42,954 nucleotides of DNA, from IMG/VR virus record IMGVR_UViG_3300000115_000051, positions 1 to 42,954 of that record; one strand, written 5' to 3'. The notes under the pieces were generated by a model that saw nothing but the letters and a program-made list of their open reading frames with translations, was not told the origin of the DNA and searched no databases. Of this stretch, positions 15,385 to 33,201 are shown one piece after another. The position numbers were made by a program, and so were the translations under genes. How positions within the stretch are numbered: the first letter of the stretch is position 1; each line of letters starts with the position of its first letter. The DNA comes from a virus.

Positions 15385-16137
15385 TTACGCTACAAAGAAG
15401 TCTACAGGGAGTTCATAAGATAGACTCATTTGCTCTTTCATTGTTTGTATCTCTGCCTTTGCGTCTTCAAGTATTGCTCTTCCGTTTAAGGTCACACCAC
15501 CGGGCAACTGAACACCTTCAAATTTGCTGAGATTTATTCCCCATTGTTCTTTAACAAGAGCAGTGGCATAATCTCTTATGAAGGAGTTGCCCCAAAGTTC
15601 TGTTGTGTCTCCAACTTTCTGATACGTTCGGAAAGTGATATACTCACCTTCCTTAATGTCCGCAGACCAATCAAAGTCAATGTAAATTTTGTTAGTTATG
15701 CGATTAAATCTAATAGCACTCATCCCACTAATCAGATCATCAACCATGCTAAGATGTGAGAGTCTTTGGTAATAATTAGACATTTCACGAACACCGCGCG
15801 TACTGTATGTTGCAATATCATTGAATGCCATTTGATATCGAACCGAGAACATGTTTGTCGATTGACCAGAAGTCTTTAACATGTGGCGAATGCCAATAAT
15901 GGAATTGTTTAGATTTTCAGGCAGTGTTAAGTATTTGTTCGTCATATCCGTAGACGTGATTGCATGGGCATACATGAGTTCTTCGGTTCCATCAAAATGA
16001 TACTCTTGCCAAAAACGCAAAGCATCATCAATCCGATCTTCCATCTGTTCTTCATCAATGTTAATCTCAATAACAGGATGACCCAATCGCCTCTTCACAT
16101 AGTCCTTTAATTCTTCTCTTGTAGTAGGTACTGCCAT
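15385..16137 (-). CDS. 13: gp13-like neck protein
   Basis: This 250-residue protein matches T4 gp13 (309). Typical segments are TREELKDYVKRRLGHPVIEINID, the DALRFWQEYHFDGTEE motif, TLPENLNNSIIGI, and IYIDFDWSADIKEGEYI, with LVKEQWGINLSKFEGVQLPGG near the C-terminus. It forms the head-completion ring under the portal. The ATG shares a base with the preceding stop (TAATG). Gene 14 follows after three bases. Confidence 0.96.
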   Translation of the reverse strand: MAVPTTREELKDYVKRRLGHPVIEINIDEEQMEDRIDDALRFWQEYHFDGTEELMYAHAITSTDMTNKYLTLPENLNNSIIGIRHMLKTSGQSTNMFSVRYQMAFNDIATYSTRGVREMSNYYQRLSHLSMVDDLISGMSAIRFNRITNKIYIDFDWSADIKEGEYITFRTYQKVGDTTELWGNSFIRDYATALVKEQWGINLSKFEGVQLPGGVTLNGRAILEDAKAEIQTMKEQMSLSYELPVDFFVA

Positions 16138-16484
16138 TACTTAGCTACCCCCGCAGTAACAGTAGCAATTCCCTCAATAACTCTTGTTCTATGAGAAGTT
16201 GATGAATTTAACACAATAACGTCATAGACATAATTGCCGGGAGTCATTGTATTGGTGTTCGCTGCATTTAGGTGTATATTAATAATTCCTGCACTTGCAT
16301 CTTGAATCCACACATTAAAAGTGGCAGAAGTATTGGAATGGTAATAACCCCTTTTAATCGCCGCATTTGCAGTATGATTGGTTAAATTCAAAACAGTTGT
16401 GGTGGAACCATTTGCATACGCAACAACGTTTGCCACATAATCAGCACCAACATCAACTGTAATATTTTGTGTTCGGCTTGCCAT
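16137..16484 (-). CDS. Small beta-rich structural protein of unknown role
   Basis: This 115-residue protein is almost entirely short beta strands with Thr, Asn, Ala and Val and no cysteines. The pattern MTPGNYVYDVIVLNSSTSHRTRVIEGIATV resembles the C-terminal strands of Ig-like N-terminal domains in phage baseplate upper or fibre proteins (BppU-like). There is no signal peptide or membrane segment. AAGGAC lies about eight bases before the ATG, and its stop overlaps the gene 13 start as TAATG. The location among neck and large structural genes suggests a minor virion or chaperone-like role. I do not recognise a named family with certainty. Confidence 0.6.
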   Translation of the reverse strand: MASRTQNITVDVGADYVANVVAYANGSTTTVLNLTNHTANAAIKRGYYHSNTSATFNVWIQDASAGIINIHLNAANTNTMTPGNYVYDVIVLNSSTSHRTRVIEGIATVTAGVAK

Positions 16485-16496
16485 CAGAAAATGTCC

Positions 16497-16730
16497 TTAC
16501 TTTTGTAAAACGGCTTTAAGCAAATCTTTGATTTCAGAGAGTTCGTTCTGAATAGTATCAACTTGTCCCTTAATGGTATTTAGTTCCTCTCGATCACTTT
16601 TTTGCTCTTGTTGCTTCTTGATCATGATCTTTCTTGCAGCCAAACCACGCGAGTCAATTGAAAGCAATGCTCCTGTTTTTTTGTCTTTGACTAGTTTCGG
16701 GTCATCTGTTTTAACTAATTCGTCTACCAT
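16497..16730 (-). CDS. Small coiled-coil protein, conserved position
   Basis: This protein has 77 residues from ATG 16730, which stands one base after the stop of the 1146-aa gene. The frame is open to a TTG at 16745, but the ATG gives the cleaner junction. The C-terminal half (EELNTIKGQVDTIQNELSEIKDLL) shows heptad spacing of hydrophobics, a coiled coil of about 35 residues. The first half has basic clusters (KLVKDKKTG, ARKIMIKKQQ). A trimerisation or assembly-partner role for neighbouring fibre-like proteins is possible. I do not recognise a named function. Confidence 0.6.
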   Translation of the reverse strand: MVDELVKTDDPKLVKDKKTGALLSIDSRGLAARKIMIKKQQEQKSDREELNTIKGQVDTIQNELSEIKDLLKAVLQK

Positions 16731-16731
16731 A

Positions 16732-19700
16732 TTATGTGAGTGCAATTACTCTAATATCCTTCAACGAAGGAATTTTGACTTTGCTGCTTGAGTAGCCAAC
16801 GACTTTAATCTGAAACGTGTTGAAGTCTGAGTATGATGAACCTACCGAATCTGTATAAGTAATCTGATCATCACCACCAGTGTCGAATTCAAATTCTCTA
16901 AAGTCATTAAACTTATGATCAATAGAAGGATTGGTTTGACGCATTTGCTGGAAGGATTTTTGATCCAAAGATTCGCTGTCAGTTGCAGAAAGGACTCTAA
17001 AATAAACATGCAATGACGTGTCTTTTGGCATCTTCGCAGTTATAAAGGATCTTAGATCTGTTGCATCCATTCCAGAAGAAAGGCTGATTTTTTTACTAAT
17101 GTATCTGAATGTCGCATTGCCACCTGTTTCTCCACCCTCTTCACCCAAAATCCTTATGACAGCACCAGAACCATTAACAGTAGATTCGGTGACAATAGCA
17201 GCATCAGAAAATCCAGCACCAGCAGTTACGACTGTCAGCTTAGTAATAACACCACCATCACCAATAGCAGCGACTTTTATACTCGCAGAAGATGCGCGGG
17301 TCGCAGAAACACTAAATGTGTCATCGACTTGATATCCAGATCCCCCACCAATAATTTCAATCATCTCTTCAGAAATTCTACCATCATTAATCGAAAAGTC
17401 ATTGAATAGGCATTGCCAATCTTCAGTATTAATCACAGGAGAAATTGCCGAGGTCGAGCTTGGTCTAGTGAGCTTGGTTGTGATCTTAAAATCTCCCAAG
17501 CTCAAATTGGAACGGAGATGCATGGGATTTGGCATTGTTGTGTCACGATTTGCAGAAAAATTATTAATCGGAGCCATAGTAGATGAACCGGAATAAACAG
17601 CCTGATATTGACTATATTCAATTGTTGCATTCTTTGGGGAAGGGGTGAACTGACCAGAACCATAATTTGGACTGAAGTACACCGACGAGTAATCTATTGC
17701 TGTAGGAAGATTCTGTCCAACTGAAATATCAGCCTGACCCGAGGTAGAAGTGAATTCACATCGGTTAATTCTGAACATCATGTCCGTATTTTCATCTTCT
17801 TCCCATGTTTGAGATCCGCTCTGTGACTTAAACAATCGCCCGCCATGATTTCTTCGACCACTAGCAGAAGTTGTAACCATTTGATCACTAACCTTTCCCG
17901 CAAGAGATCCGTCAGTAACTAGAGCTTTTGTGACATCATTAACCCAAACTTTGTATGCGCTGTCATTTGCCATTAACACAAACGCATACCTTTTATTTGG
18001 TTCGATATAAACAGGAACCGGGAATTGAAATTTGGTGAAAGCAGGATTATCATCAAACGAAGGAAGTATATTAGTTCCATCAGAAATGTTAATATCAAAA
18101 TTGTCAACTTCGGTTCTAGCCGGAATGCCAAAGGCATCTACGAGATAGTCTCTGCTTGGTGTCCCCGCCCCAGCAGTGCATGGTCGAATTTCCATCGTAA
18201 CATTACATGGACTGTTTCTATGCGAGCTTCGGCTAGGTTTTGCCGAAAAACAAACATCAATGCTTGAGATGAAAATCCCAAGACTTTGATTTGTTTCGGG
18301 AACCAAAAACGTTTGAGCCAAAGGATCAAAGTAACCGCAACGAGATGCGATCAAACTATTAAGTTGTGTCTCATTAACTGAAATTCCTTCTCTTTCATAA
18401 ATCGAAGCAACATCTTCCTTGGATATAGCAAGTTGAGGATTCAAACTTCTCCCAGCAAACCATCCTGTAGGTAGGTCAGGTGTAGACAAAGTTATTTTTG
18501 GAGGCGATATAGAACCTAATAATGGGTCAGCAATTGCTTTCCCCGACCGAATAGATCCGCCCAGATCATCAATTCCAATTGATGTGATGGTTCCAGTATC
18601 AGAAACGGTCGCGGTGCCCGTCGCTCCACGAACATCTCCACCAAAAAAGATAACTTCTGGGTAATATCCACCAGCAGCATTAATTGGAACTGGAATGGGT
18701 TGTGTTATTGGCGGTAATGGTGTTTGTGGTGGTGTTGGTGTTTGTGGTGGTTTTGGTGTTGGTGTTGGTGTTTGTGGTGGTTTTGGTGTTGATGGAGGTG
18801 TTGATGGAGGTGTTGGTGTTGATGGAGGCACTACTACTGGAGGAGTAACGTCAACAGGTGGTGTTGGTGTTGGTGTTGGTGGTTGAGGAAGGGAGGGTGG
18901 AGTTCCGCCATGATTATGATCATCGTCACATTGAATATATCCTATAAGTTCTCTGTCACGTTCTCTTGTGTAATAAACCACATGCTGAACATGATTGAGA
19001 TGGTTCGATGGCGTTGACGATTGTAGAGAGGCGTATCGAGGGTCTGCAAAAACTCCGGTAGATTCTAAATCTCCTGTTCTTGCGCCAATAAAAGCCCTTT
19101 GGGCTTGTTCATTTCCTGCTGCCGCGTCAAAGCCCACAAGATCTGTTCCAGCAGATTCTTGAAAAAATGGACCAACTGCTTCTCCTCGAAACCCCCTAGC
19201 GAAGTCATAGAACTGTGTTGGCAAAGGAAGTTGGTTTCCTAATACATGGTTGTCGGGGGCTCCATATGCACCAGCCCAATATGTGGGATGATTTTCCTGT
19301 AAAAGTTGTCTTGCGATGGGGTCGTTTAAAACTCTTACAATATTAGTCTCAACAAGACGGATATTGCCTCCAACATGACTAGGTTCAAGTCCACCGTACT
19401 CATGCCTAACCCACCCTTCGTTCTCAGGAAACGCAATACCGGATACTGCCACGGTTCCGAGCTGCATAGCCTGATTGTAAGTAAAAGGAGATGCATTAAA
19501 CTTGCCTGTGCGGCTGGCATCGGCGTCACCAAGAACATCAATAAAAGCCAAAACACTCTGTCTTGGAATCGCAGGAGAATATACCGCTCGCTGTCCAGTA
19601 GAATCGCAGTCTCCTAATATGGTTCTATCAATAGTTCCAACGTCCGAGAGATCGCCCAATGGAGGAAGCTGATCATTAGTAGGCGGAACAGGATTACCTG

Positions 19701-20172
19701 TCGATGGAGGCACTGATACTAGACCCGGAGCGATGGGTGGTGGACCTTCGGGTGGTCTGGGTATACCGAATATGCCTGATAGTCCTCGCGTAAAATCAGC
19801 ATCATCACTATTGGGGTCAACTGGAACAATTGTATTAGTAATCGTGGTTACATTAGCAGGAGGAATATCAAAATAGCCAGAGGTGTTAGGGAGAAATCCA
19901 GTTATATTACCTATGGTCACTTGAGTGTAGTTTTGATCAGGTGCGCCCCCGATGAAGACGCCACCCATTTGCCTTCCCCCCGTTGTAGGACTCGTCGTCG
20001 TGAAGCCGGCTGGCAATTCTCCTCGCGATAATTGTGCAGCGATATAACTAGGAGTATTGAAGTAAGGATCGGTTGCAGGAAGATAACCCTCGACGTTATC
20101 AATCGTAACTGAGCGATATTGAACTGATGACCGGAATGGAGGAACGGTTCGGAACCCTTGTGGAAATGGCAT
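16732..20172 (-). CDS. Large virion protein: novel N-terminal module, Pro/Thr linker, DPLAQTF-type baseplate/fibre domain
   Basis: This protein has 1146 residues. Residues 19-41 and 82-104 form an internal repeat (VTIDNVEGYLPATDPYF versus VTIGNITGFLPNTSGYF). Residues about 180-410 form a module I do not recognise, with HPTYWAGAYGAPDNHVLG and AQRAFIGARTGDLES. A Pro/Thr linker follows at about 425-495. From about residue 610 comes the domain that in related phages forms the end of the DUF4815 structural protein: GYFDPLAQTFLVPE, LGIFISSIDVCFSAK, VTMEIRPCTAG, FPVPVYIEPNKRYAFVLMAN. A GGSGY-type beta insert is present near residue 960. The ATG has AGGGAG upstream and lies six bases after the stop of the 2068-aa gene. 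A baseplate-peripheral or fibre role is inferred. Confidence 0.75.
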   Translation of the reverse strand: MPFPQGFRTVPPFRSSVQYRSVTIDNVEGYLPATDPYFNTPSYIAAQLSRGELPAGFTTTSPTTGGRQMGGVFIGGAPDQNYTQVTIGNITGFLPNTSGYFDIPPANVTTITNTIVPVDPNSDDADFTRGLSGIFGIPRPPEGPPPIAPGLVSVPPSTGNPVPPTNDQLPPLGDLSDVGTIDRTILGDCDSTGQRAVYSPAIPRQSVLAFIDVLGDADASRTGKFNASPFTYNQAMQLGTVAVSGIAFPENEGWVRHEYGGLEPSHVGGNIRLVETNIVRVLNDPIARQLLQENHPTYWAGAYGAPDNHVLGNQLPLPTQFYDFARGFRGEAVGPFFQESAGTDLVGFDAAAGNEQAQRAFIGARTGDLESTGVFADPRYASLQSSTPSNHLNHVQHVVYYTRERDRELIGYIQCDDDHNHGGTPPSLPQPPTPTPTPPVDVTPPVVVPPSTPTPPSTPPSTPKPPQTPTPTPKPPQTPTPPQTPLPPITQPIPVPINAAGGYYPEVIFFGGDVRGATGTATVSDTGTITSIGIDDLGGSIRSGKAIADPLLGSISPPKITLSTPDLPTGWFAGRSLNPQLAISKEDVASIYEREGISVNETQLNSLIASRCGYFDPLAQTFLVPETNQSLGIFISSIDVCFSAKPSRSSHRNSPCNVTMEIRPCTAGAGTPSRDYLVDAFGIPARTEVDNFDINISDGTNILPSFDDNPAFTKFQFPVPVYIEPNKRYAFVLMANDSAYKVWVNDVTKALVTDGSLAGKVSDQMVTTSASGRRNHGGRLFKSQSGSQTWEEDENTDMMFRINRCEFTSTSGQADISVGQNLPTAIDYSSVYFSPNYGSGQFTPSPKNATIEYSQYQAVYSGSSTMAPINNFSANRDTTMPNPMHLRSNLSLGDFKITTKLTRPSSTSAISPVINTEDWQCLFNDFSINDGRISEEMIEIIGGGSGYQVDDTFSVSATRASSASIKVAAIGDGGVITKLTVVTAGAGFSDAAIVTESTVNGSGAVIRILGEEGGETGGNATFRYISKKISLSSGMDATDLRSFITAKMPKDTSLHVYFRVLSATDSESLDQKSFQQMRQTNPSIDHKFNDFREFEFDTGGDDQITYTDSVGSSYSDFNTFQIKVVGYSSSKVKIPSLKDIRVIALT
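18690..18890. repeat. Low-complexity tract coding the Pro/Thr linker
   Basis: Degenerate GGTGTTGGTGTT, TGTGGTGGTTTTGGTGTT and GATGGAGGTGTT units repeat through this tract. In the coding frame they give runs such as PTPTPTPP, PSTPPSTPKPPQTPTPTPKP and PPQTPLPP, a flexible or extended linker between the N-terminal module and the DPLAQTF domain. Such tracts are prone to length change by slippage. Confidence 0.8.
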
Positions 20173-20178
20173 ACTAAT

Positions 20179-23100
20179 TTAATCTCCCTGCGGAAAAACA
20201 TCTATACGATTGATCGTACCATACCGAGCATCACCCGGAGCGTAGGTTGTTGTGGTTCCGCCGTTACCAATAGTTACACCCTGAACAACAGCGGGCTTAC
20301 CGTCTGAAATGTTACCAGATCCAGTTCTTGCATTAACATAATTATACTCTTCAAGACCTTCTCTTGTGGTTTCGTATGCGCTTGTTGGATCGACAATTTC
20401 TCTCAAACTTGACAGATATCCAGACGAATCATATGTCTTAAATCCTCGACAATTATAGTATCCGGCAGCATATGTTGTCGCAAGATAATTTGCACCATCA
20501 TTTCTATCAGAAATTTCAATCAATTTTCTTCCATACGAAAATGAAGTTTTTGAATTCTTTGGAATATGTAGGATACCAATTTTATCACCATACTTGTTTG
20601 TCTTATGGAAATGTTTTCCTATTTCTCTAATTTCAGGATTTCTCCGAACGTTGCTTGCTTCCATTGCGATTGTGTAAATACTAGTGCCATCAACCGCAGT
20701 ATCAAGAGTTGAATCACTTCTGAATGTAGCAGTTCTAGTCGTCTGATTGTAGTTGTTCACAATCGCTTCTTGACCAGCACCAGCACCATCAACAATTGTG
20801 ATTTTTGTTACATTAGGAAGATCTCTAAAGATTGAACTGTCATAGTCTGAGGAGGCAACGCCCAAGTGGAACGTTCCAAAGTTGTTCTGGGAATAGCGAT
20901 GCGCTTCAATAGACAATTGAATTTCTGTTGTCGAACCACCTGTAGCCTGACCAGAATAGTGTCCGTTATACAACCCTGTAACCTCGGTCCCTTCATGTAT
21001 TCCGCTCGGGTAAGTATATGTTGATTGGGAAATTAATTGACCTACTGCTCCAGAAGACATTCCCTTTATGAATCTTCTTGAATTTCCAAAAAATCCGTAA
21101 GCCTTAATATTGGCATCATTCCATAGTGACTTGTCATAATAACCATCAGCAAAGTTAGCAAAATCAATCTTTCCTGTTTGTGGATCAATTTCTGGAACAA
21201 TATACATTTCTCTAGCATTAGAACGGAATGTAAATCTTCCCCCGTCCACCGTTCTATCCTGCGTTCCTCCGTGCGCGTAGTCACGAATTGTTATAAGAGT
21301 CGCATTAGCTGTGAGAGAATTCTCCAGATTATAAACTTGAACTGTTTCATATGTTTGTGTATTTCCAGATTGTTCACAAACAAATGGCAATTGATTATTT
21401 TGGCTGTTTGGATGGAGATCTCTTCCGCCTTGCCACATCATTGCTCTATTCGCTGGCATGAAATGGTGTTCAGCATAGACGCCATCAAATTTGAGATCGG
21501 CTCTAGATTTTGGCTTGAGTCCACGAGCATCAATAATGATGTCTCGCTCCCTAATCTGAGGAATGATCAATCCAGAACTAATTGCACCAACAGAATCTCT
21601 CGTTCCTTCAGAATCTTCAGATCCAGCCTTGACACGATCCAAAGCATCATCAATGTTGAGAGAAGAACCTGTAACAGAAAGAGCAACCTGTCTCGTCAGA
21701 TCGTCTAAAGATTCTGTTCCCCGCCATGTTTCAGAGGATCGACCAAAGTCAGCATCCGCTCCACCTTGAATCAAAGCCGCAAAATCGGACAGGGCGCTTA
21801 GTTTGTTGAAATTGGCACCCACAACAGAGGAGTCTACACGAAGACTGTCAAGAACACCATCGTCTGAACTAATAGAAAATGATACATCTGTTAATTCAAA
21901 CCAATGATCGGTTTCTGGGAAAATATCAAGTGTTCCAATGTAATTTTTGTTGTCGAATGGATTGAGACTTTCTTGAGATGTAGCACTAGACTGTTGATCA
22001 TAAGGAACCTCTTCATAATCCAACATACCAATAGTTGGTTTGCCTGCGATTTTACCATAAAATCGCATGTTGCTAATGTTGCTCGCTCTCCAATCAAGAC
22101 CATCAAACTCTTCGACAGTCCCATACGATGGCTTGAGTTGGCTATCCCCAATTTGGAAAGTAAACGTGTCTGTTGTTGGGTTGCGAACACCTTCGTTTTG
22201 AAGATCAGCGAAACCAAGAGTCTCAAAGTTATCAACAAAGATTCCATTCTGAAATCTAGTATTTCCATCACTGTCGGCAACCAGAGTATCAGCAGTTCTT
22301 CTCTCCAGAGCATTTAACGAAACATAATATTCAAGATTTTTAACTCTCTGTGCAAGTCTAGAAAGATCTTTCATTGTTTGACGAACAACAGTTTTATCTT
22401 CAAGCCTAACATTTACGGTATCGAAAGTATATGCCGGAACATGGACATTAAACAATGCCATCTGATTATCAGACAATCTTTCAACATTCGGCAAAGGTCT
22501 AGCTGATGGTGTTCCTGTACTAACAAAATATTCACCATTAGTGTCAACGGCTATCGTATCTACTCTCGGGAGATAGTATTCAATCTTGTGGGATGTCTGA
22601 ATACTTGCCATATCACTTGATCTACCAAAAGCAATTCCATTTGCTGTGGGTATAGGCGCGAAGTAGCCATCGAGTCTTGGGCTTGCATTTGATCTATATG
22701 ATCTAAAGTCTGCAAAATTTACTAATGGAAACTGGACACCTCTAGCGTTGGTATATTTTGGAATGTCCTCGAATGGCAAATCTGCTTCAACCACACTAGA
22801 AATTTTTCCAACTTTGCTTACAGCAGAAGAACCAGTATTTTCGATATCTGTTCCTACTCCAAACTTACCTATTGTCCCGACTAACGAAACCTTAGCCAGT
22901 CCACTTGTATTGGCAACATCAGAAATATATCCAGACGCGATAGTTGAATTGCCATTATCATCAACAGTAACAGTAGTTGCTGCAACAAAATCCCCCACTT
23001 CAAAATTAATCGTAGCGGGTGAAGAAAGAGTCAGATCGGTTGTTGTTTGATAAGAGTCGGCAGCAAAGAAACTCGCATCAGTGGAAATAGGTCGCGAAGC

Positions 23101-26100
23101 TGCATCAGGTGCCGCCGCAGTCTTTCGGAAGAAGTCAACAAAAATCATAAGATTCGCTGTTGGCGTCTTAAATGCAGAACCCCTTAGAAGAAGTTTAGCA
23201 TGACCATAATTGGAATCGGATTGACCTGTATCTAAGGTATAACAATTAGTCACATCGGTCAGACCAGATTGAGAGATCTTGTCTGTGCTTACTGGAGTAT
23301 ATCCCTCAAGCACTTTATGAACCTTGAATACATCAGGAATATTAAGTTCAACCTTAGTGGGCATTGATGCATATAAAGTATTGGCAACAAAAATGTGACC
23401 ATTGCCTAATTGTGTTGCATCATCAACCCCTGCACCACCAAGTTCAACATGAGTCAGATTTGCCTTAACCAATGTTTTGTATGCAGGCTTAACCTCAAGA
23501 GCCTTATAAGGATACAACAATTCATATGTATTACCATTGGTAAATGAGCGAATATCAGTTGAGAATCCTCCAGCTAACGTGACCCTTATCTGTGGAGTTG
23601 AGCCCGGAACCATCTCAACCTTTTGAATGCCATCGACTTTGCCAATAGCCTCAATTCTACTAATAATTTGACCTGTGTTGTCGTATTCGACTAATATAAT
23701 ATTGTCACGAAGTTCTGTCTGAGAACCAGAAGAAATTAGATCTGATGCCGATCCCGAATATAATCCGTCAACAGTCAGATTATACGGATAAGGAATAGCA
23801 TGAGATTTGGTGGCGTCAGTTATTCCCGAGTTAAAGAATTCACTGTGGGGAAGATTAAATAGTAATGTTGTGCCTGTTGAACCACAGAGAGTTCTTGAAT
23901 GACCAGTGAAAAATACTTCTGTATTTGACGTAAAGCCTGTGTCCAAGGCACCATGAGCAGCAACCCTTCTTGGAACAACTGATTCATTTTCTGGTTTCAA
24001 CAACATTAAGAAGTTTTCATCAACACCATTTGGATTAAATTTTATATGCCTTGAAAGAGGACGGACACCTACATCCGATCTTACAATTCCATCAGAAAGA
24101 GTTGACCCTGTTAATTGAGGATTATCAGTGTAAAGACCTGCGGCAATTTGAAATGCCGGATGAATAGGAGCATCTGTTACATTGTCAAAGAATGGAACCC
24201 CTTTAGTGTCTTTGTTTAAAGTTGACCCAATAGAAAAAACATCCTTCGGAGACATGGTAACTCTGTAAGACTGTCCCTTAGTGATTTGACTGGAAATATC
24301 CGTATTCAGAAGTGCAGTCGCTCTTCTTGATGCTTCGGGAGTTGTTGGTCCAAAATCCTCTGAAGTTGTAAGGAAGGCGTTTTGTAAAAGACCAGTTCCG
24401 TGGAATGCCTTAATGGCATGAGTTTCAATAACACTACCACTCTCACTCAAAATTTGAATTTGACCGCCAACAAATCCACCATTTAGAGATGGTGATTTAT
24501 TGATATCAAGGTTGACTGACCTAGTATACGAAAGATTCGCTGTTGTGCGGTTAACATTGAACGGACCTTCAACCGTCTCTCCTGCTACGATGAGGTTAGT
24601 GCCCACCCCACTATTTTCAACAATCATCATTGTAGAATTACTTGACATCAGTGTTTGATCTCGGTTCCAAGTACTATTTGCGCTAGCTAGCTTGACTCGA
24701 TCATGCAGGTGTCTTGGAGAACCCGAATGAAATGCGTCATCTCTTTCGGTGTCATGTGAAGCAGCATTTCCAATCCACCCAGAGTATGGATCAGTATCAA
24801 ATTTGATTGCCACTGTATCGTTATTGATTGCAACTGCATTCGCAGCAATCACATAGTTTGCTGTTGTAAATTTGCCAGAATGTTCGGTTGATTTGTAATC
24901 ACTGAAATAGGCTCTATATGAGACAGGATCAAATGCGCTCTGTAGATAGGGATACTCTGGAATATCATTATCAAGAACAAAGTGTGATATTTTCGCAGTA
25001 CCAATCTCAAATGCTGTGTAGGCATTTTGGGTTTTAACGTTTCCACCAAAGGGATTCGTTACACCACTCATATCTGGAATGTGGTGGGTGAAAAAGGAAA
25101 CTTCTTGTCCCACAACGCTGTTTGCAATAACGCTGCCATTATCGTCGGCAAGAGTTCCTACATGAAAAATACCATTTGCAGTTTCAAAGTCTGTACGAAA
25201 TCCTGCATCACCGTAAACCTTTCCTGCGTTGGGAAAATACTGATAATCTTGAACAACAACAAAGTTGTCGCCAAAATTATTATCAAACGATCTAGACAAG
25301 GTTCTTGTGCTTCGACCCTTATCTAGTGTGATCGGATTTGATCCTGTCGCATCGTGGCGATAGCCTTTGACGTAAGAAATGCCATCTTTAATTTTAGCTT
25401 GAATTGTTGGCTCATACAATGATGTAATATTTTCAACAGTCGCGGTGTATTTCTTTGAAACATAATCACCACTCTCTTCATAGGTTCTCTTTGCGAGCAT
25501 TTCTTTGACATCGCCATAAACAGTATTTTTTGCTGTCCAAACAAGACGACCGTCTAACACTCTTGCAATTTGAAAAAAGTTGTCGGGCAGGTTTTTTACA
25601 GATTCAGAGACAGTCACAAGTGATAACTGATAAGAAAGTCGATCAGCACCGGGAGCCCCACGGTTATTGTTATTCGATGGTTCGTTTAATGTTAAATCTC
25701 TTCTTGATGATGTGATAGACTCTCTTACGCTATAACCAATTTTCAAATCTGATGTCGTGGCTTTATCGTTAAGCATAACAGCATTGGGTTCTGCCGTTAA
25801 GAACTGTCCTTTATAGTAGTAAAGACCTCTAGCAACAATGACTCTTGAAGCGAATCCCGTAAAAGTAGAGTCTACGACATCAACTGTTGTGAATGTAAGA
25901 AGTGGTCTTTCTCCGATTTCAGGATCAAAAAGAACAAGAGGTTCATTTGCTTTGAATCCAATATCTTCACCAAATATATATTTAATATAAACGATATTAT
26001 CACCTGCCGGTGTCGTTTTTGTTTTTGTAGATTGAACAACAGCCAAAACCTGTGGGTTTGTTGGGTCATCATTTTGACGACGAATCCTCATTCTTCCACG

Positions 26101-26385
26101 AATTACACCAAAGAGAACCCTACGACCGTAAACATCAAAATCTTTGACTTTTATGAACGGGAGGGTCTTTGATGCTCCATCAAAATCAATTTCACCACCA
26201 AGAATCTTTGCACCGTCATCAAATAAATGATCGCCCATTTTGGTAATTTGATTTTGCAAAGTTGACTGGATAACGTTAAGTTCTCTCGCCTGAACTGCTC
26301 TTCCGGGCTGGAACAATAGCTTCAGATAATTTTTGTTCTCCAGAAAATCATCATAGTATGGGGATCTGTTTAAATTGATGGGCAT
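20179..26385 (-). CDS. DUF4815-type very large virion structural protein (2068 aa)
   Basis: The N-terminus MPINLNRSPYYDDF, FLENKNYLKLLFQPGRAVQARELN and MGDHLFDDGAKILGGEI marks the DUF4815 family found in marine T4-like and other large phages. Near residue 1300 comes RLSDNQMALFNVHVPAYTFDT with a helical segment LSRLAQRVKNLEYYVSLNALE. Near 1615 comes IIIDARGLKPKSRADLKFDG, and later GILHIPKNSKTSFSYGRKL. In relatives this chain continues directly into a DPLAQTF domain; here that domain is in the next gene. A peripheral baseplate or fibre-anchoring role is likely from the cluster, possibly replacing T4 gp10 and gp11 functions, which are not otherwise seen. Its ATG lies 12 bases after gp8. Confidence 0.8.
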   Translation of the reverse strand: MPINLNRSPYYDDFLENKNYLKLLFQPGRAVQARELNVIQSTLQNQITKMGDHLFDDGAKILGGEIDFDGASKTLPFIKVKDFDVYGRRVLFGVIRGRMRIRRQNDDPTNPQVLAVVQSTKTKTTPAGDNIVYIKYIFGEDIGFKANEPLVLFDPEIGERPLLTFTTVDVVDSTFTGFASRVIVARGLYYYKGQFLTAEPNAVMLNDKATTSDLKIGYSVRESITSSRRDLTLNEPSNNNNRGAPGADRLSYQLSLVTVSESVKNLPDNFFQIARVLDGRLVWTAKNTVYGDVKEMLAKRTYEESGDYVSKKYTATVENITSLYEPTIQAKIKDGISYVKGYRHDATGSNPITLDKGRSTRTLSRSFDNNFGDNFVVVQDYQYFPNAGKVYGDAGFRTDFETANGIFHVGTLADDNGSVIANSVVGQEVSFFTHHIPDMSGVTNPFGGNVKTQNAYTAFEIGTAKISHFVLDNDIPEYPYLQSAFDPVSYRAYFSDYKSTEHSGKFTTANYVIAANAVAINNDTVAIKFDTDPYSGWIGNAASHDTERDDAFHSGSPRHLHDRVKLASANSTWNRDQTLMSSNSTMMIVENSGVGTNLIVAGETVEGPFNVNRTTANLSYTRSVNLDINKSPSLNGGFVGGQIQILSESGSVIETHAIKAFHGTGLLQNAFLTTSEDFGPTTPEASRRATALLNTDISSQITKGQSYRVTMSPKDVFSIGSTLNKDTKGVPFFDNVTDAPIHPAFQIAAGLYTDNPQLTGSTLSDGIVRSDVGVRPLSRHIKFNPNGVDENFLMLLKPENESVVPRRVAAHGALDTGFTSNTEVFFTGHSRTLCGSTGTTLLFNLPHSEFFNSGITDATKSHAIPYPYNLTVDGLYSGSASDLISSGSQTELRDNIILVEYDNTGQIISRIEAIGKVDGIQKVEMVPGSTPQIRVTLAGGFSTDIRSFTNGNTYELLYPYKALEVKPAYKTLVKANLTHVELGGAGVDDATQLGNGHIFVANTLYASMPTKVELNIPDVFKVHKVLEGYTPVSTDKISQSGLTDVTNCYTLDTGQSDSNYGHAKLLLRGSAFKTPTANLMIFVDFFRKTAAAPDAASRPISTDASFFAADSYQTTTDLTLSSPATINFEVGDFVAATTVTVDDNGNSTIASGYISDVANTSGLAKVSLVGTIGKFGVGTDIENTGSSAVSKVGKISSVVEADLPFEDIPKYTNARGVQFPLVNFADFRSYRSNASPRLDGYFAPIPTANGIAFGRSSDMASIQTSHKIEYYLPRVDTIAVDTNGEYFVSTGTPSARPLPNVERLSDNQMALFNVHVPAYTFDTVNVRLEDKTVVRQTMKDLSRLAQRVKNLEYYVSLNALERRTADTLVADSDGNTRFQNGIFVDNFETLGFADLQNEGVRNPTTDTFTFQIGDSQLKPSYGTVEEFDGLDWRASNISNMRFYGKIAGKPTIGMLDYEEVPYDQQSSATSQESLNPFDNKNYIGTLDIFPETDHWFELTDVSFSISSDDGVLDSLRVDSSVVGANFNKLSALSDFAALIQGGADADFGRSSETWRGTESLDDLTRQVALSVTGSSLNIDDALDRVKAGSEDSEGTRDSVGAISSGLIIPQIRERDIIIDARGLKPKSRADLKFDGVYAEHHFMPANRAMMWQGGRDLHPNSQNNQLPFVCEQSGNTQTYETVQVYNLENSLTANATLITIRDYAHGGTQDRTVDGGRFTFRSNAREMYIVPEIDPQTGKIDFANFADGYYDKSLWNDANIKAYGFFGNSRRFIKGMSSGAVGQLISQSTYTYPSGIHEGTEVTGLYNGHYSGQATGGSTTEIQLSIEAHRYSQNNFGTFHLGVASSDYDSSIFRDLPNVTKITIVDGAGAGQEAIVNNYNQTTRTATFRSDSTLDTAVDGTSIYTIAMEASNVRRNPEIREIGKHFHKTNKYGDKIGILHIPKNSKTSFSYGRKLIEISDRNDGANYLATTYAAGYYNCRGFKTYDSSGYLSSLREIVDPTSAYETTREGLEEYNYVNARTGSGNISDGKPAVVQGVTIGNGGTTTTYAPGDARYGTINRIDVFPQGD

Positions 26386-26397
26386 TTATGGCTTCCT

Positions 26398-28134
26398 CTA
26401 AATTTCAAACACGAACTTAAAGTTTTCTCTCTGACCGTCTCGTCTAGAGATTTGTGATATGTTTTCATGATAAAGTATTTCTCCAATATATTTAGTCACT
26501 CCAGCATAAGAAATTGCTGATACTGGAGAAAAACCTGAACCTTGGGGGTATTCATATTTATACAGACCCGTATGCGATATCTGAAGAAAATCTGATCCAA
26601 TGTAGATTTGATCACCCTCTGAGAATTCTCCATGAACATCGGTGACTGTAAGGAATTCTGATTTTCCTAGAGCTGTTGTATCAGGAACAGCAACAGTAGA
26701 CGTATCAGTAATAGCAGTATGTCTTTGCGACTCGCCACCCTTACTGAAGATTCTGGCTGTCCCACCTGTATTTGCATTTGTGATAATTTTTCCTTCGGAG
26801 AAATTAGCCATTACGGCTCCCGATCTAATAGAATCTCCGATAAAAAACGTTAATCTTTGATCAAAAGTTTGCCCGACACCATGATTAAAGTCTGGAGTCA
26901 TTAACAATCCAGCCTGTCGAATCTTTCCACTCGGTCCAATGAAGGAACCCTGTTCCTCATTTTTTCTATTTGCAAAGGTCGTCTCTGAAGACACCACAAA
27001 ATACTTGGCATCAAGCTCAGAAACAGGGTAATACCCATGACCACCAAACGGTGTTGTGTTGACACTAAGTTTTGCAGAAGTTCCATGAGGAGAAGTAGCA
27101 TACCGTCCATTTACAAAAGCAGTCAATGACGCATTTGTGTAACCTCGACCAGAGTTAATGGTAATCACTTTTCTAATTCTGCCTGATGTGCTTACATCGC
27201 CAATTCCTTTAAATCCTTTTCCGTGACCATTAATAATATCAATCTTAGGTCCAATCATAAACGTGTCGCCATTGGCAATGTTATTGATTGCAGTTTCGAG
27301 AACAACGGTATTAGTTCCTGCATCATAATCAGAAATTGTTTTCATCACACCTGTAGAGATACCAGAGGTCATGTAGATTCCACAGTTGTTGTAAAAGTCG
27401 TCTGCCGCAGAAAGTCCCGAATCTGCCTGCAATCGAATAACATTACATGCAGAGGTTTCGCTGACAGTTGTAAAGATTGTGGCATTAGTTAAGGCAACAC
27501 CGACAGTACCATTAGAGAAGTTACTACCCCTGTAATTAATCCCGGTGCCATATGCAACATTTGCTGTTGATGTGACATTTAAAATTGTCCCATCAACAGC
27601 AACACTAGCAACCAATGGGTTACTATAAACTGGAATAACATCATCTGTTGCAAATCTTCTAAATGCATCATCCGTAATAGAGTACATGTATTTCCACACA
27701 TATCCATCAGATGAACGAATGACACCCGTATTTTTGAGAACTGGTTTTTCTAGAGATTGGTGGTCTGCATTATTGTCAAGACACTTATAAACGTCTCGAT
27801 CATATCGACCAGCAAGAACGTAGTATCCTGTTCCTGTTCCGAGATTTGTATTAGTGACATCGTACTTTTCGTAAACAGTTCCCGATTGCCAATTTATTCG
27901 TTTAATTGCTGGAGAAACATCACCACTATTAAGACGAAGAATGCCAGACATGCTGTTCCAGATGCTTCGCTTGTAATCCATTGTATCTTCTGGTGCGGGT
28001 GGTTCTGCATCATTTGCCCAAGGACCATCACCTGTGCCGAGATACAAACACAAAGCACTTGTATCGACAGCATTAAGCAATCCGATAAGTGTAAATCGTT
28101 TTAGATTTGTTGTGACTATTGTATTCGCAGGCAA
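26398..28134 (-). CDS. 8: gp8-like baseplate wedge protein (TTG start)
   Basis: This 578-residue protein matches gp8 of marine T4-like phages (T4: 334). The N-terminal half has LYLGTGDGPWANDAEPPAP, YKRSIWNSMSGIL, YYVLAGRYDRDVYKCLDNN, and SSDGYVWKYMYSITDDAFRRF. The C-terminal half has repeated beta segments and GQTFDQRLTFFIGD, LQISHTGLYKYEYP and GEILYHENISQISRRDGQ, the last two being typical endings. gp8 binds gp6 and gp7 in the wedge. The start is TTG at 28134: AGGAG lies seven to eight bases upstream and the first in-frame ATG is 51 codons later, inside conserved sequence. A perfect late promoter lies at 28157-28164. Confidence 0.9.
   Translation of the reverse strand: MPANTIVTTNLKRFTLIGLLNAVDTSALCLYLGTGDGPWANDAEPPAPEDTMDYKRSIWNSMSGILRLNSGDVSPAIKRINWQSGTVYEKYDVTNTNLGTGTGYYVLAGRYDRDVYKCLDNNADHQSLEKPVLKNTGVIRSSDGYVWKYMYSITDDAFRRFATDDVIPVYSNPLVASVAVDGTILNVTSTANVAYGTGINYRGSNFSNGTVGVALTNATIFTTVSETSACNVIRLQADSGLSAADDFYNNCGIYMTSGISTGVMKTISDYDAGTNTVVLETAINNIANGDTFMIGPKIDIINGHGKGFKGIGDVSTSGRIRKVITINSGRGYTNASLTAFVNGRYATSPHGTSAKLSVNTTPFGGHGYYPVSELDAKYFVVSSETTFANRKNEEQGSFIGPSGKIRQAGLLMTPDFNHGVGQTFDQRLTFFIGDSIRSGAVMANFSEGKIITNANTGGTARIFSKGGESQRHTAITDTSTVAVPDTTALGKSEFLTVTDVHGEFSEGDQIYIGSDFLQISHTGLYKYEYPQGSGFSPVSAISYAGVTKYIGEILYHENISQISRRDGQRENFKFVFEI
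26555..26562 (-). promoter_or_regulatory. Intragenic late-promoter octamer upstream of the DUF4815 gene
   Basis: Exact TATAAATA on the minus strand within the codons for Leu-Tyr-Lys-Tyr of gp8. Expected initiation near 26549 would give a leader of about 165 bases to the 2068-aa gene. Distance and orientation resemble the octamer inside gene 14. Chance occurrence cannot be excluded. Confidence 0.45.
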
Positions 28135-28173: not shown

Positions 28174-31100
28174 TTAGTAGTTAGAATAATAAGTGTTTGA
28201 ATCAAATGGATTGTATCCAATCTTGGGCGGATTAAATCGGAATGGATGGTGAACTCCGGCAGAGGAGAACTCTGTAGCAACACCAGCACTAGCACCATCC
28301 TTCCAGACTAATCTATCCTGTATTCCATATTTATGAGCCAAATATCCTTCCATTGTCGCAATTTCATTATTACTCATCTTCTTGTTGAAAACTAAGATTT
28401 CAGCAATATCTCCATCCCAAATATTTGAGTGATGCAGAAAATCATGATTAACAGCACCCGGATTCGTGTTGTGAATTTGATTATTTGAGGGTGCTGTACC
28501 ACCAATTGATGTAACATAATTGTTTTGCTCATACCAAACCATTCCATCATTTAATGTGTTGTTTGTGTTGGCATCGAAACCGCCCCATGTAGCCATTTGA
28601 TTTAGCACAGTTCCGCCCGCACTTCCATACCTTCTTCCATTATAGAAGAATGTGATGATATCAGAGTTTGCCGACTGTGCGCTAGGATACCCCGGAAAAT
28701 CAAAGGATGAATTTCCAGTATATGGAGAAAGGTAAGTATTTCCTGCAAATTCACTTGTCGTATAAATGTTAAACTGATTTGCAAGTAGACCCTCATAATA
28801 TCCTGCTTGATAGTATCCATAGTAAATACTGTTTGCTCGGACTAGGGTTTGTAATACACCTTCCCCGTTTACATCATCATTATCTTGTTGTCTTATGCGA
28901 AGATCCATACTTCCAGCGGAATGATTTGGGTCAAGGTCAACGAAGGAGCGATTCTCAGAAGAAACTCCAGAATATCCAGAGTTTAATATAGTTGCATCGG
29001 ATCTCATGATAGGGTGATCGAGCCTCGATTCTCTTCCATAAAAAATGTTATTCATAGGAAGATTGAGCTTTGCCACTGATATCATGGTCCACTGATTTGC
29101 CACTGGTCTTGGAAGTATTGGGACAGCGAGCGATCCGCCAATATTGACACCATTCGCATCATACAACATTCGCGATTGCAAAGTGGTTGTTGCCATTGAC
29201 CTCTTGTATCCAGCACGATCAGCATGAAACATTCCTAATGAATTTGCAGTTCCTCCACCAAGTGTGGAGAAGGCATACACATTGTTGTAATTCTGATTGA
29301 ACATCATATAATTATTGCCATCGAAGGCGGCGGCACCAGTGGAATATAGATGGTTTCCAACCATATCAGAGTTTGCTGTTGATTTGACCGTGTTTGACCT
29401 AAATCTAACTACAGGATAACCATTGATGCCATTGGCAACATATTGTGGGTATAGATAAATTCCATGCGTGTTCGCATAAACGTGATGTTCGTTTGGACTT
29501 AAATCATACCAAGAATGAACATTTGCATAAGTAGTCGCATATGGTCTTTTATATGGCGATGGAGTATAAGGTATATTCCCATCTGCGAGCGAAGCAATAT
29601 TAAAAACACCATGCACCGGAGGATTGTATTCCTCAATCATCCAGCCATCGTAAGAGTAAACATTGTTTCCCGTAGCAAGAGTCAATGGACGATCACTGTG
29701 ATCTTCAAATCTGGAAATGGCGTCAAATCTTGTAAGCGGGCTTGTAGATAAATCTACGACCGCAGATTTTCTTTCCCAAACATTATTTTGTTCAAAAGCA
29801 GGAAACCTCAAAGTTTTTGTTGGGGTAGCCATTGACCCCGAAGTGTTTGCTCCAGTCAGACTAAAGGTGATTCCTGCCGTTGTTCCAGATGCCGGTGTCA
29901 CATTATTAGTTCTGGCGTAGACACTCACCAGCCATTTTTTGTAGGGCTCAAGAACGACTTGATGTCTTTCCTCTTCTAGATCAACATTTTTGTATCGACC
30001 GAGAGAGAAATTTCCGCCACTTGGATGTCCAACAGACCCAGATCCCGAGTTTGCCAATAGTGTTGGATGCCAATAATTACCACCCGAAGTTGAAGCAATA
30101 CTGTTGTTTGCCTGCGTCCATTCGGTATAGAAATTTCCGCCGGTTGGAGAATCACCTCGCACCAAACGATGAACCAAACCAGCACTAATCTGATTAACCT
30201 TATTCGCAGTATCACTACCAGTTTGGGGGGCGGCGATGGCTTGATCTTCATACCTAAAGCTGCGTTCAGATATATAATCCTTTTGGTTTTCGTATTCAGA
30301 AATGCCATAAGGCCAGTAATTGATTACTCCACTTTTACCATAAGAATGTTCGACGGGTTCAGGAACAGGCAACTCTGGATGAGATTTTTTTCGATCCAGA
30401 TTTGCTGGAACAATAGAATCACCCTTCCACCATCCAGCAAGAGAATCTGAGGTGTCGAAATGTGGTGTCCACAAGTTTTCTATATTTGTATTGGAGTATA
30501 TTGAATTGTTTGCTGGTGATTGGTGAATACTCAACTTTGTGTTCGCCGGAGATCTTGGTGATGTCTTACTTGCGAGCATCTTTAGACCAGCAGGATTAAC
30601 ACTGTCTTTCACAATTGTGTAGTAGTTGGTCGAGTCTTGTTCACTAACAATCTCATAGGAATATTCGTTCAGATTATGACCACGGAGTTTTGCTCCGGGT
30701 GTTGACAAAAGACTTCTTTGAGAAACATAACGACCTTCACTGAAATGCATTGGTTCAACAACTTCAACCTTGACTGAATCAATTACTGTTCGCGCCAACG
30801 AGTTAACTGAAGGTTTTAGTGTTTGATTAACACGAATGAATGGACTGAAAAATGATGTGAAGTAAGGAAGTCTTGCATTTCCTGCGAGCGCGTGTGAAAT
30901 TCCTGATGTGGATTTTGTTGGATTGGTAACATTTCCTGTCGTCGGAAATCTTCCCGGCAAATCAAGTCGTCCACCCGAACCATAATTATTTGCTGCGGCT
31001 CGATATGGATTTGTTTGTGTAACAATACTTGTTCCCAAACTAGGATCATATGTGTCAATTTCAGACGCTAGTTGCCTTCCACTAAAGTATGCCGAATAAG

Positions 31101-33201
31101 TGAAGAATGAATCATCCAGCGGAACAGAATTTGCAACCAATGAAATTGCCTTTGTTTCGCCTGTCGAGATGTCCACATAGTTATTACTGATGTCGGTAAA
31201 GAACTGCACTCCATTTGAAGCATATGTGATGACTCCAGCAGAAAATAAAGATCCAGAGTTTGCACTCTCCTCATATCCAGACTTTCCATCAAGACCCTTT
31301 GCACGAACCGACATCTTGTAGATGTTTCTTTCGTCGAATGGTATTTTTTGATTCCAGACCAAGAATCTTTCTGTTTGATTTTTTTCTCTGTAATATCTAT
31401 TCTCTTCATGATCATCATTAAATGAGAGTGTGTCGCCAACAACCAGAATCTTTCCTGCTGCGTCAACCGTGTCCGTTCCGGGTCCGCCAATCAGACGCAT
31501 CTGACCAGCACCATTAGCAGTATACCAAGGACCAATATCTGAAACTGCTACTTCTGGGGTAAACTCGACTCCGGGGTTGTCAAATCTGATCCATGCGATC
31601 TGATAAGTGTCTCCTATCGCATTGCGATATTTGGGATTCCGAAGCAGATTATTAGTTCTCCAAGCTCCTCCGATATCATAGCGAATCCTATCAATTATTT
31701 GATGAGTTTCTAATTCTGCATGTTTCCACGCTGGACGATCTGCTAAATCATAACGATAAACGTGCCACTTTCCCATTTTCATTCTTGTGGGATCTGTGTT
31801 ATATCTTTTCATATACACAGATGCTCTTCGACTTCCAAAATTGACCGAGTTATTAGCCCAGAATAATTGAATTTGTGGTGAAGTATCTTCCTCGTCATAT
31901 ACAGCATCCACGGTTTGTCTCATACACAGAGATACAGTGCTATACTCTGTAGAAAACCCTAGACCCCTATCTTCCAGATCAAGACTGTACGAGTATGGGT
32001 CAATATAAGTACCAGCACTGCTTTCTCGATCAACCAACTGCTCAAGAACATTTATAGAATCTGCCCCGCCGGTTGAAACTATTTTGTGACTCGAATGTTG
32101 CGGAACAAAACCATGTGGTCTGGTATTTCCAACTTTCTGATTGGTAAAATCGAACAACAAACCAACATTAGAACTCGAAAAAGAATTTGCGGATTTAGGA
32201 AATAGATGATCTATGCCAACACTTGAAGAACTTTCGGATTGTCGAAGAATATTTCCGGGTTTGATGTTGTATGAAACGTTTGTTCCGAAGTTTCGATCAA
32301 TATAGTTGTCAAACGGCGAAAACATATTATCACTATCTGGATACGAATAATTATCATTCATAAGATTTGTAGTGGCAAGAGGCAGAACAACAGAATTAAA
32401 TGTTTTTTCTGAACCACGAGTATAAATTTTTTCGTGAAGCTGGAATTGACCATCCAAAGTGTTTTGATCAAGAACAAGAAATGCCTTCTTTGGCTGGTGT
32501 ATTCTAAGAAACTCTGGCTCCATCACATGCTCAATGTCTCGCGTAACATTGTTGGCGAGCATTCGTGGAATGTGACTATTCGCATGTCTACCCGGCTTAA
32601 AGCTCATCGTCTGATCTGTCGGAATTACATGAACCTCGTTGACCATTGCAGACGCGCCTGATGTAACACCAATGATCTCACGTTCTGCCATATCCTCAAG
32701 TCCTTCGATATAAGGAACCATGAGGTAAGACTCTCTTTGATATTCACCACCACTTGCAATAAGAATTTCGTCAATTGGCAATCGAATATCAATCTCTTCA
32801 TTAAATAATAGTCGAAAAAGATATTTGAAAGAATCTGCCGTACCAACAGACCGATAAAAATCTAGAATGTTCTTCTGGAAGTTTCTTCGATTAGCCGAAC
32901 TCTTAAATTTTTCAGGGAGAAATTTCCCATATTGTGCATTAAAGGAACGTGTGAAGTTATCAAGATCTGTCGTATCAATATCACCAAGATCAGGAATAAT
33001 TTTTGTTGCCGAATCTACACCATAGTAGTAGGTGGAAGAATCCGTGGCAGTCGTAATCAAAGAGTTGTTTGCCAAAAACTCATAATATTTCTCTATGAAA
33101 GTGACAAAGGTGGGATGTTCTGATTGGATGAACTCTGGAATATGATCCGACACCAATAGAGATGTCTGATGTGAATTTGCAGTTACGACAACGTTTCCCA
33201 T
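28174..33201 (-). CDS. 7: gp7-like baseplate wedge protein with lectin-like C-terminal modules
   Basis: This protein has 1675 residues, against 1032 in T4 gp7. Residues 1 to about 300 carry the wedge signature: LVSDHIPEFIQSEHPTFVTF, IEKYYEFL, FQKNILDFYRSVGTADSFKY, LFRLLFNEEIDIRLP and ILIASGGEYQRES. From about residue 530 come beta-sandwich modules of carbohydrate-binding type (NLLRNPKY..., WNQKIPFDERNIYKMSVRAK; later KWLVSVYARTNN and WERKSAVVDLS). The last part (about 1230-1640) is a laminin-G/concanavalin-like domain with YVANGINGYPVVRF and GDIAEILVFNKKMSNNEIAT, MEGYLAHKYG. It probably combines wedge architecture with glycan contact. GGGAG lies about 13 bases before its ATG; gene 6 precedes it by six bases. 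Confidence 0.85.
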   Translation of the reverse strand: MGNVVVTANSHQTSLLVSDHIPEFIQSEHPTFVTFIEKYYEFLANNSLITTATDSSTYYYGVDSATKIIPDLGDIDTTDLDNFTRSFNAQYGKFLPEKFKSSANRRNFQKNILDFYRSVGTADSFKYLFRLLFNEEIDIRLPIDEILIASGGEYQRESYLMVPYIEGLEDMAEREIIGVTSGASAMVNEVHVIPTDQTMSFKPGRHANSHIPRMLANNVTRDIEHVMEPEFLRIHQPKKAFLVLDQNTLDGQFQLHEKIYTRGSEKTFNSVVLPLATTNLMNDNYSYPDSDNMFSPFDNYIDRNFGTNVSYNIKPGNILRQSESSSSVGIDHLFPKSANSFSSSNVGLLFDFTNQKVGNTRPHGFVPQHSSHKIVSTGGADSINVLEQLVDRESSAGTYIDPYSYSLDLEDRGLGFSTEYSTVSLCMRQTVDAVYDEEDTSPQIQLFWANNSVNFGSRRASVYMKRYNTDPTRMKMGKWHVYRYDLADRPAWKHAELETHQIIDRIRYDIGGAWRTNNLLRNPKYRNAIGDTYQIAWIRFDNPGVEFTPEVAVSDIGPWYTANGAGQMRLIGGPGTDTVDAAGKILVVGDTLSFNDDHEENRYYREKNQTERFLVWNQKIPFDERNIYKMSVRAKGLDGKSGYEESANSGSLFSAGVITYASNGVQFFTDISNNYVDISTGETKAISLVANSVPLDDSFFTYSAYFSGRQLASEIDTYDPSLGTSIVTQTNPYRAAANNYGSGGRLDLPGRFPTTGNVTNPTKSTSGISHALAGNARLPYFTSFFSPFIRVNQTLKPSVNSLARTVIDSVKVEVVEPMHFSEGRYVSQRSLLSTPGAKLRGHNLNEYSYEIVSEQDSTNYYTIVKDSVNPAGLKMLASKTSPRSPANTKLSIHQSPANNSIYSNTNIENLWTPHFDTSDSLAGWWKGDSIVPANLDRKKSHPELPVPEPVEHSYGKSGVINYWPYGISEYENQKDYISERSFRYEDQAIAAPQTGSDTANKVNQISAGLVHRLVRGDSPTGGNFYTEWTQANNSIASTSGGNYWHPTLLANSGSGSVGHPSGGNFSLGRYKNVDLEEERHQVVLEPYKKWLVSVYARTNNVTPASGTTAGITFSLTGANTSGSMATPTKTLRFPAFEQNNVWERKSAVVDLSTSPLTRFDAISRFEDHSDRPLTLATGNNVYSYDGWMIEEYNPPVHGVFNIASLADGNIPYTPSPYKRPYATTYANVHSWYDLSPNEHHVYANTHGIYLYPQYVANGINGYPVVRFRSNTVKSTANSDMVGNHLYSTGAAAFDGNNYMMFNQNYNNVYAFSTLGGGTANSLGMFHADRAGYKRSMATTTLQSRMLYDANGVNIGGSLAVPILPRPVANQWTMISVAKLNLPMNNIFYGRESRLDHPIMRSDATILNSGYSGVSSENRSFVDLDPNHSAGSMDLRIRQQDNDDVNGEGVLQTLVRANSIYYGYYQAGYYEGLLANQFNIYTTSEFAGNTYLSPYTGNSSFDFPGYPSAQSANSDIITFFYNGRRYGSAGGTVLNQMATWGGFDANTNNTLNDGMVWYEQNNYVTSIGGTAPSNNQIHNTNPGAVNHDFLHHSNIWDGDIAEILVFNKKMSNNEIATMEGYLAHKYGIQDRLVWKDGASAGVATEFSSAGVHHPFRFNPPKIGYNPFDSNTYYSNY

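Follow-up and report, generated by a model that had tools for sequence, protein, structure and literature searches.

Organization of the locus

The stretch of DNA analyzed here (the window) is a virus record of 42,954 bp, judged by gene content to be a T4-like myovirus, with its structural genes on the minus strand in T4-like order. Among isolates, its terminase is nearest to that of Methylophilales phage Melnitz (56%) and then to those of cyanophages such as S-PM2, while gp6 is nearest to its counterparts in Melnitz and then in the Pelagibacter phages Mosig and HTVC008M. Directly after the gene for the baseplate wedge protein gp8 (26398..28134; this gene and the features of P1, P2, and the small gene given below are on the minus strand) lie two genes, here called P1 and P2, followed by a small phrog_473 gene (16497..16745). 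In the relatives that carry P1 and P2 as one fused gene, gp8 is likewise the upstream neighbor, and in isolates a gene of similar size lies directly 3' of the fused gene; the neighbors of the locus match those of the fused phages. The usual single-chain form, in which a DUF4815 part continues into a part marked by the motif DPLAQTF, does not occur in the window, where the two parts are encoded by separate genes.

P1 (20179..26385) encodes the 2068-aa N-terminal part of a DUF4815, or VrlC-type, baseplate protein. The DUF4815 profile PF16075 matches P1 only, not P2, in three stretches between profile positions 3 and 568/570 (E 9e-46), with a score of 156.8 bits against a curated cut-off of 30. 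These stretches correspond to profile positions 3-61 (26179..26358), 65-242 (25294..25848), and 373-568 (21886..22587). P1 ends shortly past the segment equivalent to FRTG of fused relatives. Between its FDG strand and the FRTG-equivalent strand lies an extra segment of ~300 residues (~1647-1950; 20536..21447), which is common to P0003 of the sister lineage described below, absent from the Pelagibacter and Methylophilales phages, and without a match in a Pfam search.

P2 (16732..20172) encodes 1146 aa, comprising a new N-terminal half and the C-terminal part of the fused protein. It opens with a two-copy repeat (copy 1, residues ~16-40, ..VTIDNVEGYLPATDPYFNTP, 20053..20127; copy 2, residues ~81-104, ..VTIGNITGFLPNTSGYFDIP, 19861..19932), the score of which was reached by 0 of 2000 shuffles. 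A module of residues ~175-424 (18901..19650) follows, with cysteines close to its two ends (C189 and C415), and is joined by a Pro/Thr linker (residues ~425-494; 18691..18900) of ~70 residues, compared with ~20 in the relative L005, to a Gly-rich beta segment that is conserved, being common to the sister lineage and L005 (residues 496-600; 18373..18687). The DPLAQTF domain (residues 611-830; 17683..18342) occupies the place of the lectin-like domain of Herelleviridae VrlC proteins, and the C-terminal beta domain (residues 1020-1146; 16735..17115; pLDDT ~80) that of their terminal carbohydrate-binding-module fold. This layout had been anticipated from the sequence: the first part was said to end at 20179 and DPLAQTF to appear near residue 615 of a separate 1146-residue gene, and both the coordinates and the lengths are exact, with the motif occurring once, at residue 616. 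A 218-position profile of the domain matches P2 at residues 611-824 with 210 bits; a further copy within the 2068-aa P1, which would have told against that account, is not there, as the same profile, with filtering switched off, found nothing in P1 at E<=10. The first 600 residues of P2 do contain the repeat, unmatched module, and Pro/Thr linker that had been described, although the Gly-rich segment had been missed. A candidate resemblance between the C-terminal tail of P1 and the N-terminal repeats of P2, by which the break would have fallen within a repeat array, was rejected, as 1388 of 2000 shuffles scored as high.

At the junction, the P1 stop, two codons, and the P2 start follow one another in a single frame as TAA-ATT-AGT-ATG (20170..20181). 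A Shine-Dalgarno-like GGGAGA (20183..20188) stands upstream of the P2 ATG, inside the end of P1. Translation of P2 from this first ATG is likely, because repeat copy 1 precedes the next internal Met.

Comparison with fused and split relatives

According to the original prediction, related phages run the DUF4815 chain straight into DPLAQTF, and this is borne out: both parts lie in one open frame in 140 of the loci fetched (132 unique sequences), including those of all isolates examined, among them P-RSM4, ACG-2014d, MA01, Melnitz, HTVC008M, Mosig, and Rhizobium, Kuttervirus, and Vibrio phages. In these fused proteins, the median length of the joint that links the FRTG-type strand to DPLAQTF is ~40 aa (41 in 134 measured proteins; 37 by a slightly different measure). 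Against a profile built from 19 fused relatives only (2021 positions, DPLAQTF near 1514), P1 of the sister lineage covers positions 4-1471 and its P2 covers 1510-2019, without overlap. Window P1 matches at 4-390 and 845-1405 and window P2 at 1505-1677 and 1888-2019, again without overlap; what remains unmatched is variable inner sequence, and no part is present twice. Past position 1405, window P1 is tied by pairwise alignment to sister P1, itself aligned to 1471. The break falls in a linker of 34-39 profile positions. Similarly, P1 matches from position 5 and P2 at 1416-1582 of phrog_358, a family of fused proteins with 2056 positions. The proposed fission at the expected join is well supported, both by these in-turn, non-overlapping matches and by the 140 fused loci set against two split lineages.

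A sister lineage (L121-L123), assembled in three metagenomes, is split as well, with intact open frames of 2014 and 987 aa that lie in different reading frames. It shares 34% identity with the window in P1, and the terminase of its member G002 is 78% identical to that of the window. An N-terminal module is present on its P2 too, and can be aligned weakly to that of the window. The partial relatives L004, L005, and L006 contain P2 sequence, with the junction outside their span (L005 holds part of the module), and L007 spans only the first 400 residues of P1. L143 and L222, with 63-68% identity to each other, form a second split lineage, in which the break is at the same joint and new start codons are present; there, DPLAQ lies at P2 residue 8 or 9, and ~200 extra residues are found on the C-terminus of P1. 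A tree built from the shared parts groups the window with the sister and L143 with L222, as two separate pairs that each have 100% SH-aLRT.

By these comparisons, the split is a trait of a clade, with a parallel in a second lineage. A two-gene form with the N-terminal region is thus general in the immediate clade, as the original prediction had allowed might count against it, but not in the wider family. The locus is less novel than first stated, since its split characterizes a whole clade and has a second-lineage parallel, and since insertions at this joint are also seen in fused relatives.

One further candidate for this split was rejected, and two more loci were not counted. In the rejected case, Synechococcus phage DSL-LC02 (OR032571; L011:28-3933, L017:1-3882), VrlC is annotated as truncated because the record start cuts an open frame, and its N-terminal half is unannotated; the gene spans that start, with its frame open on both sides. 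L275 is broken elsewhere, in a frameshift-like manner. In L210 (L210:3386-11341), the break lies in the N-terminal part of the DUF4815 locus, where it separates an N-terminal frame of 691 aa from one of 1959 aa that has a start of its own, and is perhaps another fission.

Several observations concern the surroundings of the locus. At 1675 aa, the protein at the gp7 position (28174-33201) is large; its counterparts in Mosig, Melnitz, and HTVC008M have ~875-1017 aa. Toward the end of the protein, around residues 1563-1628, it matches phrog_10356 and phrog_11772, where a further cell-contact domain is possible. On the other side, phrog_473 and phrog_3304 genes (16137-16745) lie directly 3' of P2 in the window and L004-L006. 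Relatives at 85% in TerL (L018, L020, L043) have other, fiber-like genes upstream of the phrog_3304 gene. The sister lineage G002 carries a gene cluster of ~28 kb, partly fiber-like, between P2 and the phrog_3304 gene, which includes a 5169-aa open frame downstream of P2 (L115:2-15508); the window has no such frame there. The idea that the module substitutes for tail fibers, prompted by the lack of fiber-like genes in the window and L004-L006, was dropped, as the sister has both a module and this cluster.

Readings that dispense with an independent fission were weighed against these data. That the split is only apparent, owing to a sequencing error or to readthrough of the in-frame TAA into a 3217-residue fusion, draws on the shared frame of window P1 and P2, with just one TAA and two codons between them. 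It is nevertheless highly improbable: in both the sister lineage and L222 the two genes lie in different frames with a gap between them, the sister arrangement recurs in three assemblies, a Shine-Dalgarno-like site precedes P2, and TAA is the least leaky stop codon. Judging from the sequences, the two-gene arrangement is a gene fission and not a sequencing error. An unrelated tail fiber or adhesin might instead have acquired a DPLAQTF domain and replaced a lost C-terminal half of P1, as half of P2 is unrelated to the fused proteins and P2 is highly diverged from its fused homologs (22-31% identity). Yet the C-terminal half of P2 aligns end to end with the fused C-termini, and the gene order, the neighbors, and the in-turn match down to the last C-terminal residues call for no transfer. 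The two-subunit replacement by an unrelated protein, offered originally as an alternative to fission, is thus unsupported, and we consider it improbable. As to the number of events, the best tree requires two changes, with fused rows between both split pairs, and the two lineages carry their extra sequence on different sides of the cut. A single ancient fission, later reversed in several lineages, is nonetheless conceivable, if doubtful; when all four split rows were constrained to one clade, the AU test did not reject one origin (p-AU 0.27).

The P2 module and insertions at the joint

The module (P2 175-424) has no family match in Pfam or PHROGs, none by tblastn of phage genomes at E<=1, and only insignificant matches in the PDB; its AlphaFold model is unusable (mean pLDDT 29.1). 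The profile search suggested at the outset for residues 1-600 of P2 left the module matchless. Alignment of the module with sister P2 1-290 is weak, resting on two local blocks with scores reached by 9 of 500 and 17 of 2000 shuffles. In comparison with L005, the module (289-425) shows 62.8% identity, residues 480-600 show 72.7%, the DPLAQTF domain 80%, and the last domain 92%, against 98-99% in the neck proteins (gp13, 98.8%). pN/pS is 0.49 in the module and 0.04 in gp13, and dS climbs toward the module (0.69 versus 0.13 in gp13). The module is thus the fastest-diverging part among those tested, and its high dS suggests that recombination probably contributes besides selection.

Fast divergence suggests that the module is a host-contact element, as originally proposed. 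Such a role is plausible, yet the module matches no known family and lacks a confident model; nor is it new to the window, as the sister has a module there too. The leading competitor, a serious contender though the less favored one, casts the module as structural: a spacer, a trimerization element, or a docking element by which P2 is re-attached to P1. Something has to hold a newly split protein in place, and the sister keeps a module at this position; no lectin, enzyme, or fiber family is matched; and P2 of L143 and L222 lacks an N-terminal addition while their P1 has a C-terminal one, which would suit docking. However, conservation would be expected of a docking part, whereas no part of P2 is more divergent than the module, which is also very different in the window and the sister, and the long Pro/Thr tether suits display over docking.

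Extra sequence is not confined to split proteins. The joint reaches at least 65 residues in 11 of 134 fused relatives and at least 100 in five. Several of these long joints have Pro-rich runs, and the inserts of L164, L170, L199, and L231 carry two or more cysteines; the window and sister modules likewise have a Cys near each end. In a Pfam search, the inserts of L164 and L222 gave no match. Given the inserts in fused relatives, extra sequence enters the joint with or without fission; on this showing, and because the second split lineage has its extra sequence on P1, fission and module gain are separable, and a module can be gained without fission.

Proposed assembly and meaning of the split

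DUF4815/VrlC proteins of the Kyanoviridae and related phages (PF16075, phrog_358; AGE60391 of HTVC008M, QOI69064 of Mosig, QZI94892 of Melnitz) have the same domain order and neighbors as the window. They differ in being one chain, whereas the window has two genes, a ~600-residue N-terminal addition on P2, and an extra segment in P1. The DUF4815 baseplate protein of Staphylococcus phage phi812 (ORF65; PDB 9euf and related) resembles the window in its sequence matches to P1 (1.9e-15) and, weakly, to P2 (0.0044), and in the P2 fold match; it is a single chain of 1152 aa without the added module. Structure prediction, one of the checks originally proposed, gave a weak model of P2 (mean pLDDT 40.6), in which only the last domain is good (~80, mostly beta). 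In Foldseek the whole model matches phi812 baseplate entries at E 1.6e-10 over 582 columns, without a clear carbohydrate-binding-module match.

In the VrlC family, predicted models of Herelleviridae proteins show lectin-like and carbohydrate-binding-module folds in the C-terminal half (PMC11406892). Gp106 of Listeria phage A511 is described as forming pyramids that reorient toward the cell wall, with a proposed role in cell contact (PMC11406892). A511 Gp106, Deep-Blue Gp176, and Vp4 Gp120 resemble the window in family and in having their C-terminal folds at the corresponding place, but are single chains from phages of Gram-positive hosts, in contrast to the split form of the window. Among related phages, a one-to-two gene precedent exists in Vp4 Gp111, which corresponds to Deep-Blue Gp188 plus the Gp186 tail spike, so that one baseplate protein equals a structural and a host-binding gene (PMC11406892); this, however, is the central spike, a different protein.

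The following explanation is proposed, with a probability of about 0.68 for the whole. In the ancestor of a marine T4-like clade, an ancestral single-chain DUF4815/VrlC arm would have been cut at a flexible linker that separates its wedge-anchored part from its cell-facing part. By homology, P1 would be the base, seated on the gp8 wedge, and P2 the distal, cell-facing part, with its lectin-like DPLAQTF domain and its terminal carbohydrate-binding-module-like domain. The two would most likely join non-covalently, through an interface that is intrachain in relatives, and the arm may swing toward the cell upon attachment, as proposed for A511 Gp106. The freed N-terminus of P2 would display a variable module on its Pro/Thr tether at the joint, most likely as a further cell-contact element. 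Within this scheme, the fission, where it falls, its occurrence in both split lineages, and how far the module has diverged are observed, whereas the assembly of P1 with P2, the swinging motion, the lectin and carbohydrate roles of the conserved domains, and the role of the module are inferred.

In abundant marine and enteric myoviruses, the DUF4815 family supplies some of the largest baseplate proteins, most of them with a hypothetical annotation. Where such a protein is split naturally, the break marks a domain boundary as well as an interface; it divides a base that is conserved from a tip that varies, and singles out a joint at which sequence is added repeatedly. The two genes also provide separately expressible halves of a protein that otherwise, in T4-like and related phages, has ~1600-2500 residues. 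More speculatively, phages may have repeatedly cut the DUF4815 arm at this one linker, making the tip a separate, exchangeable adhesin subunit and the joint a general port that takes up new host-contact modules whether or not fission occurs.
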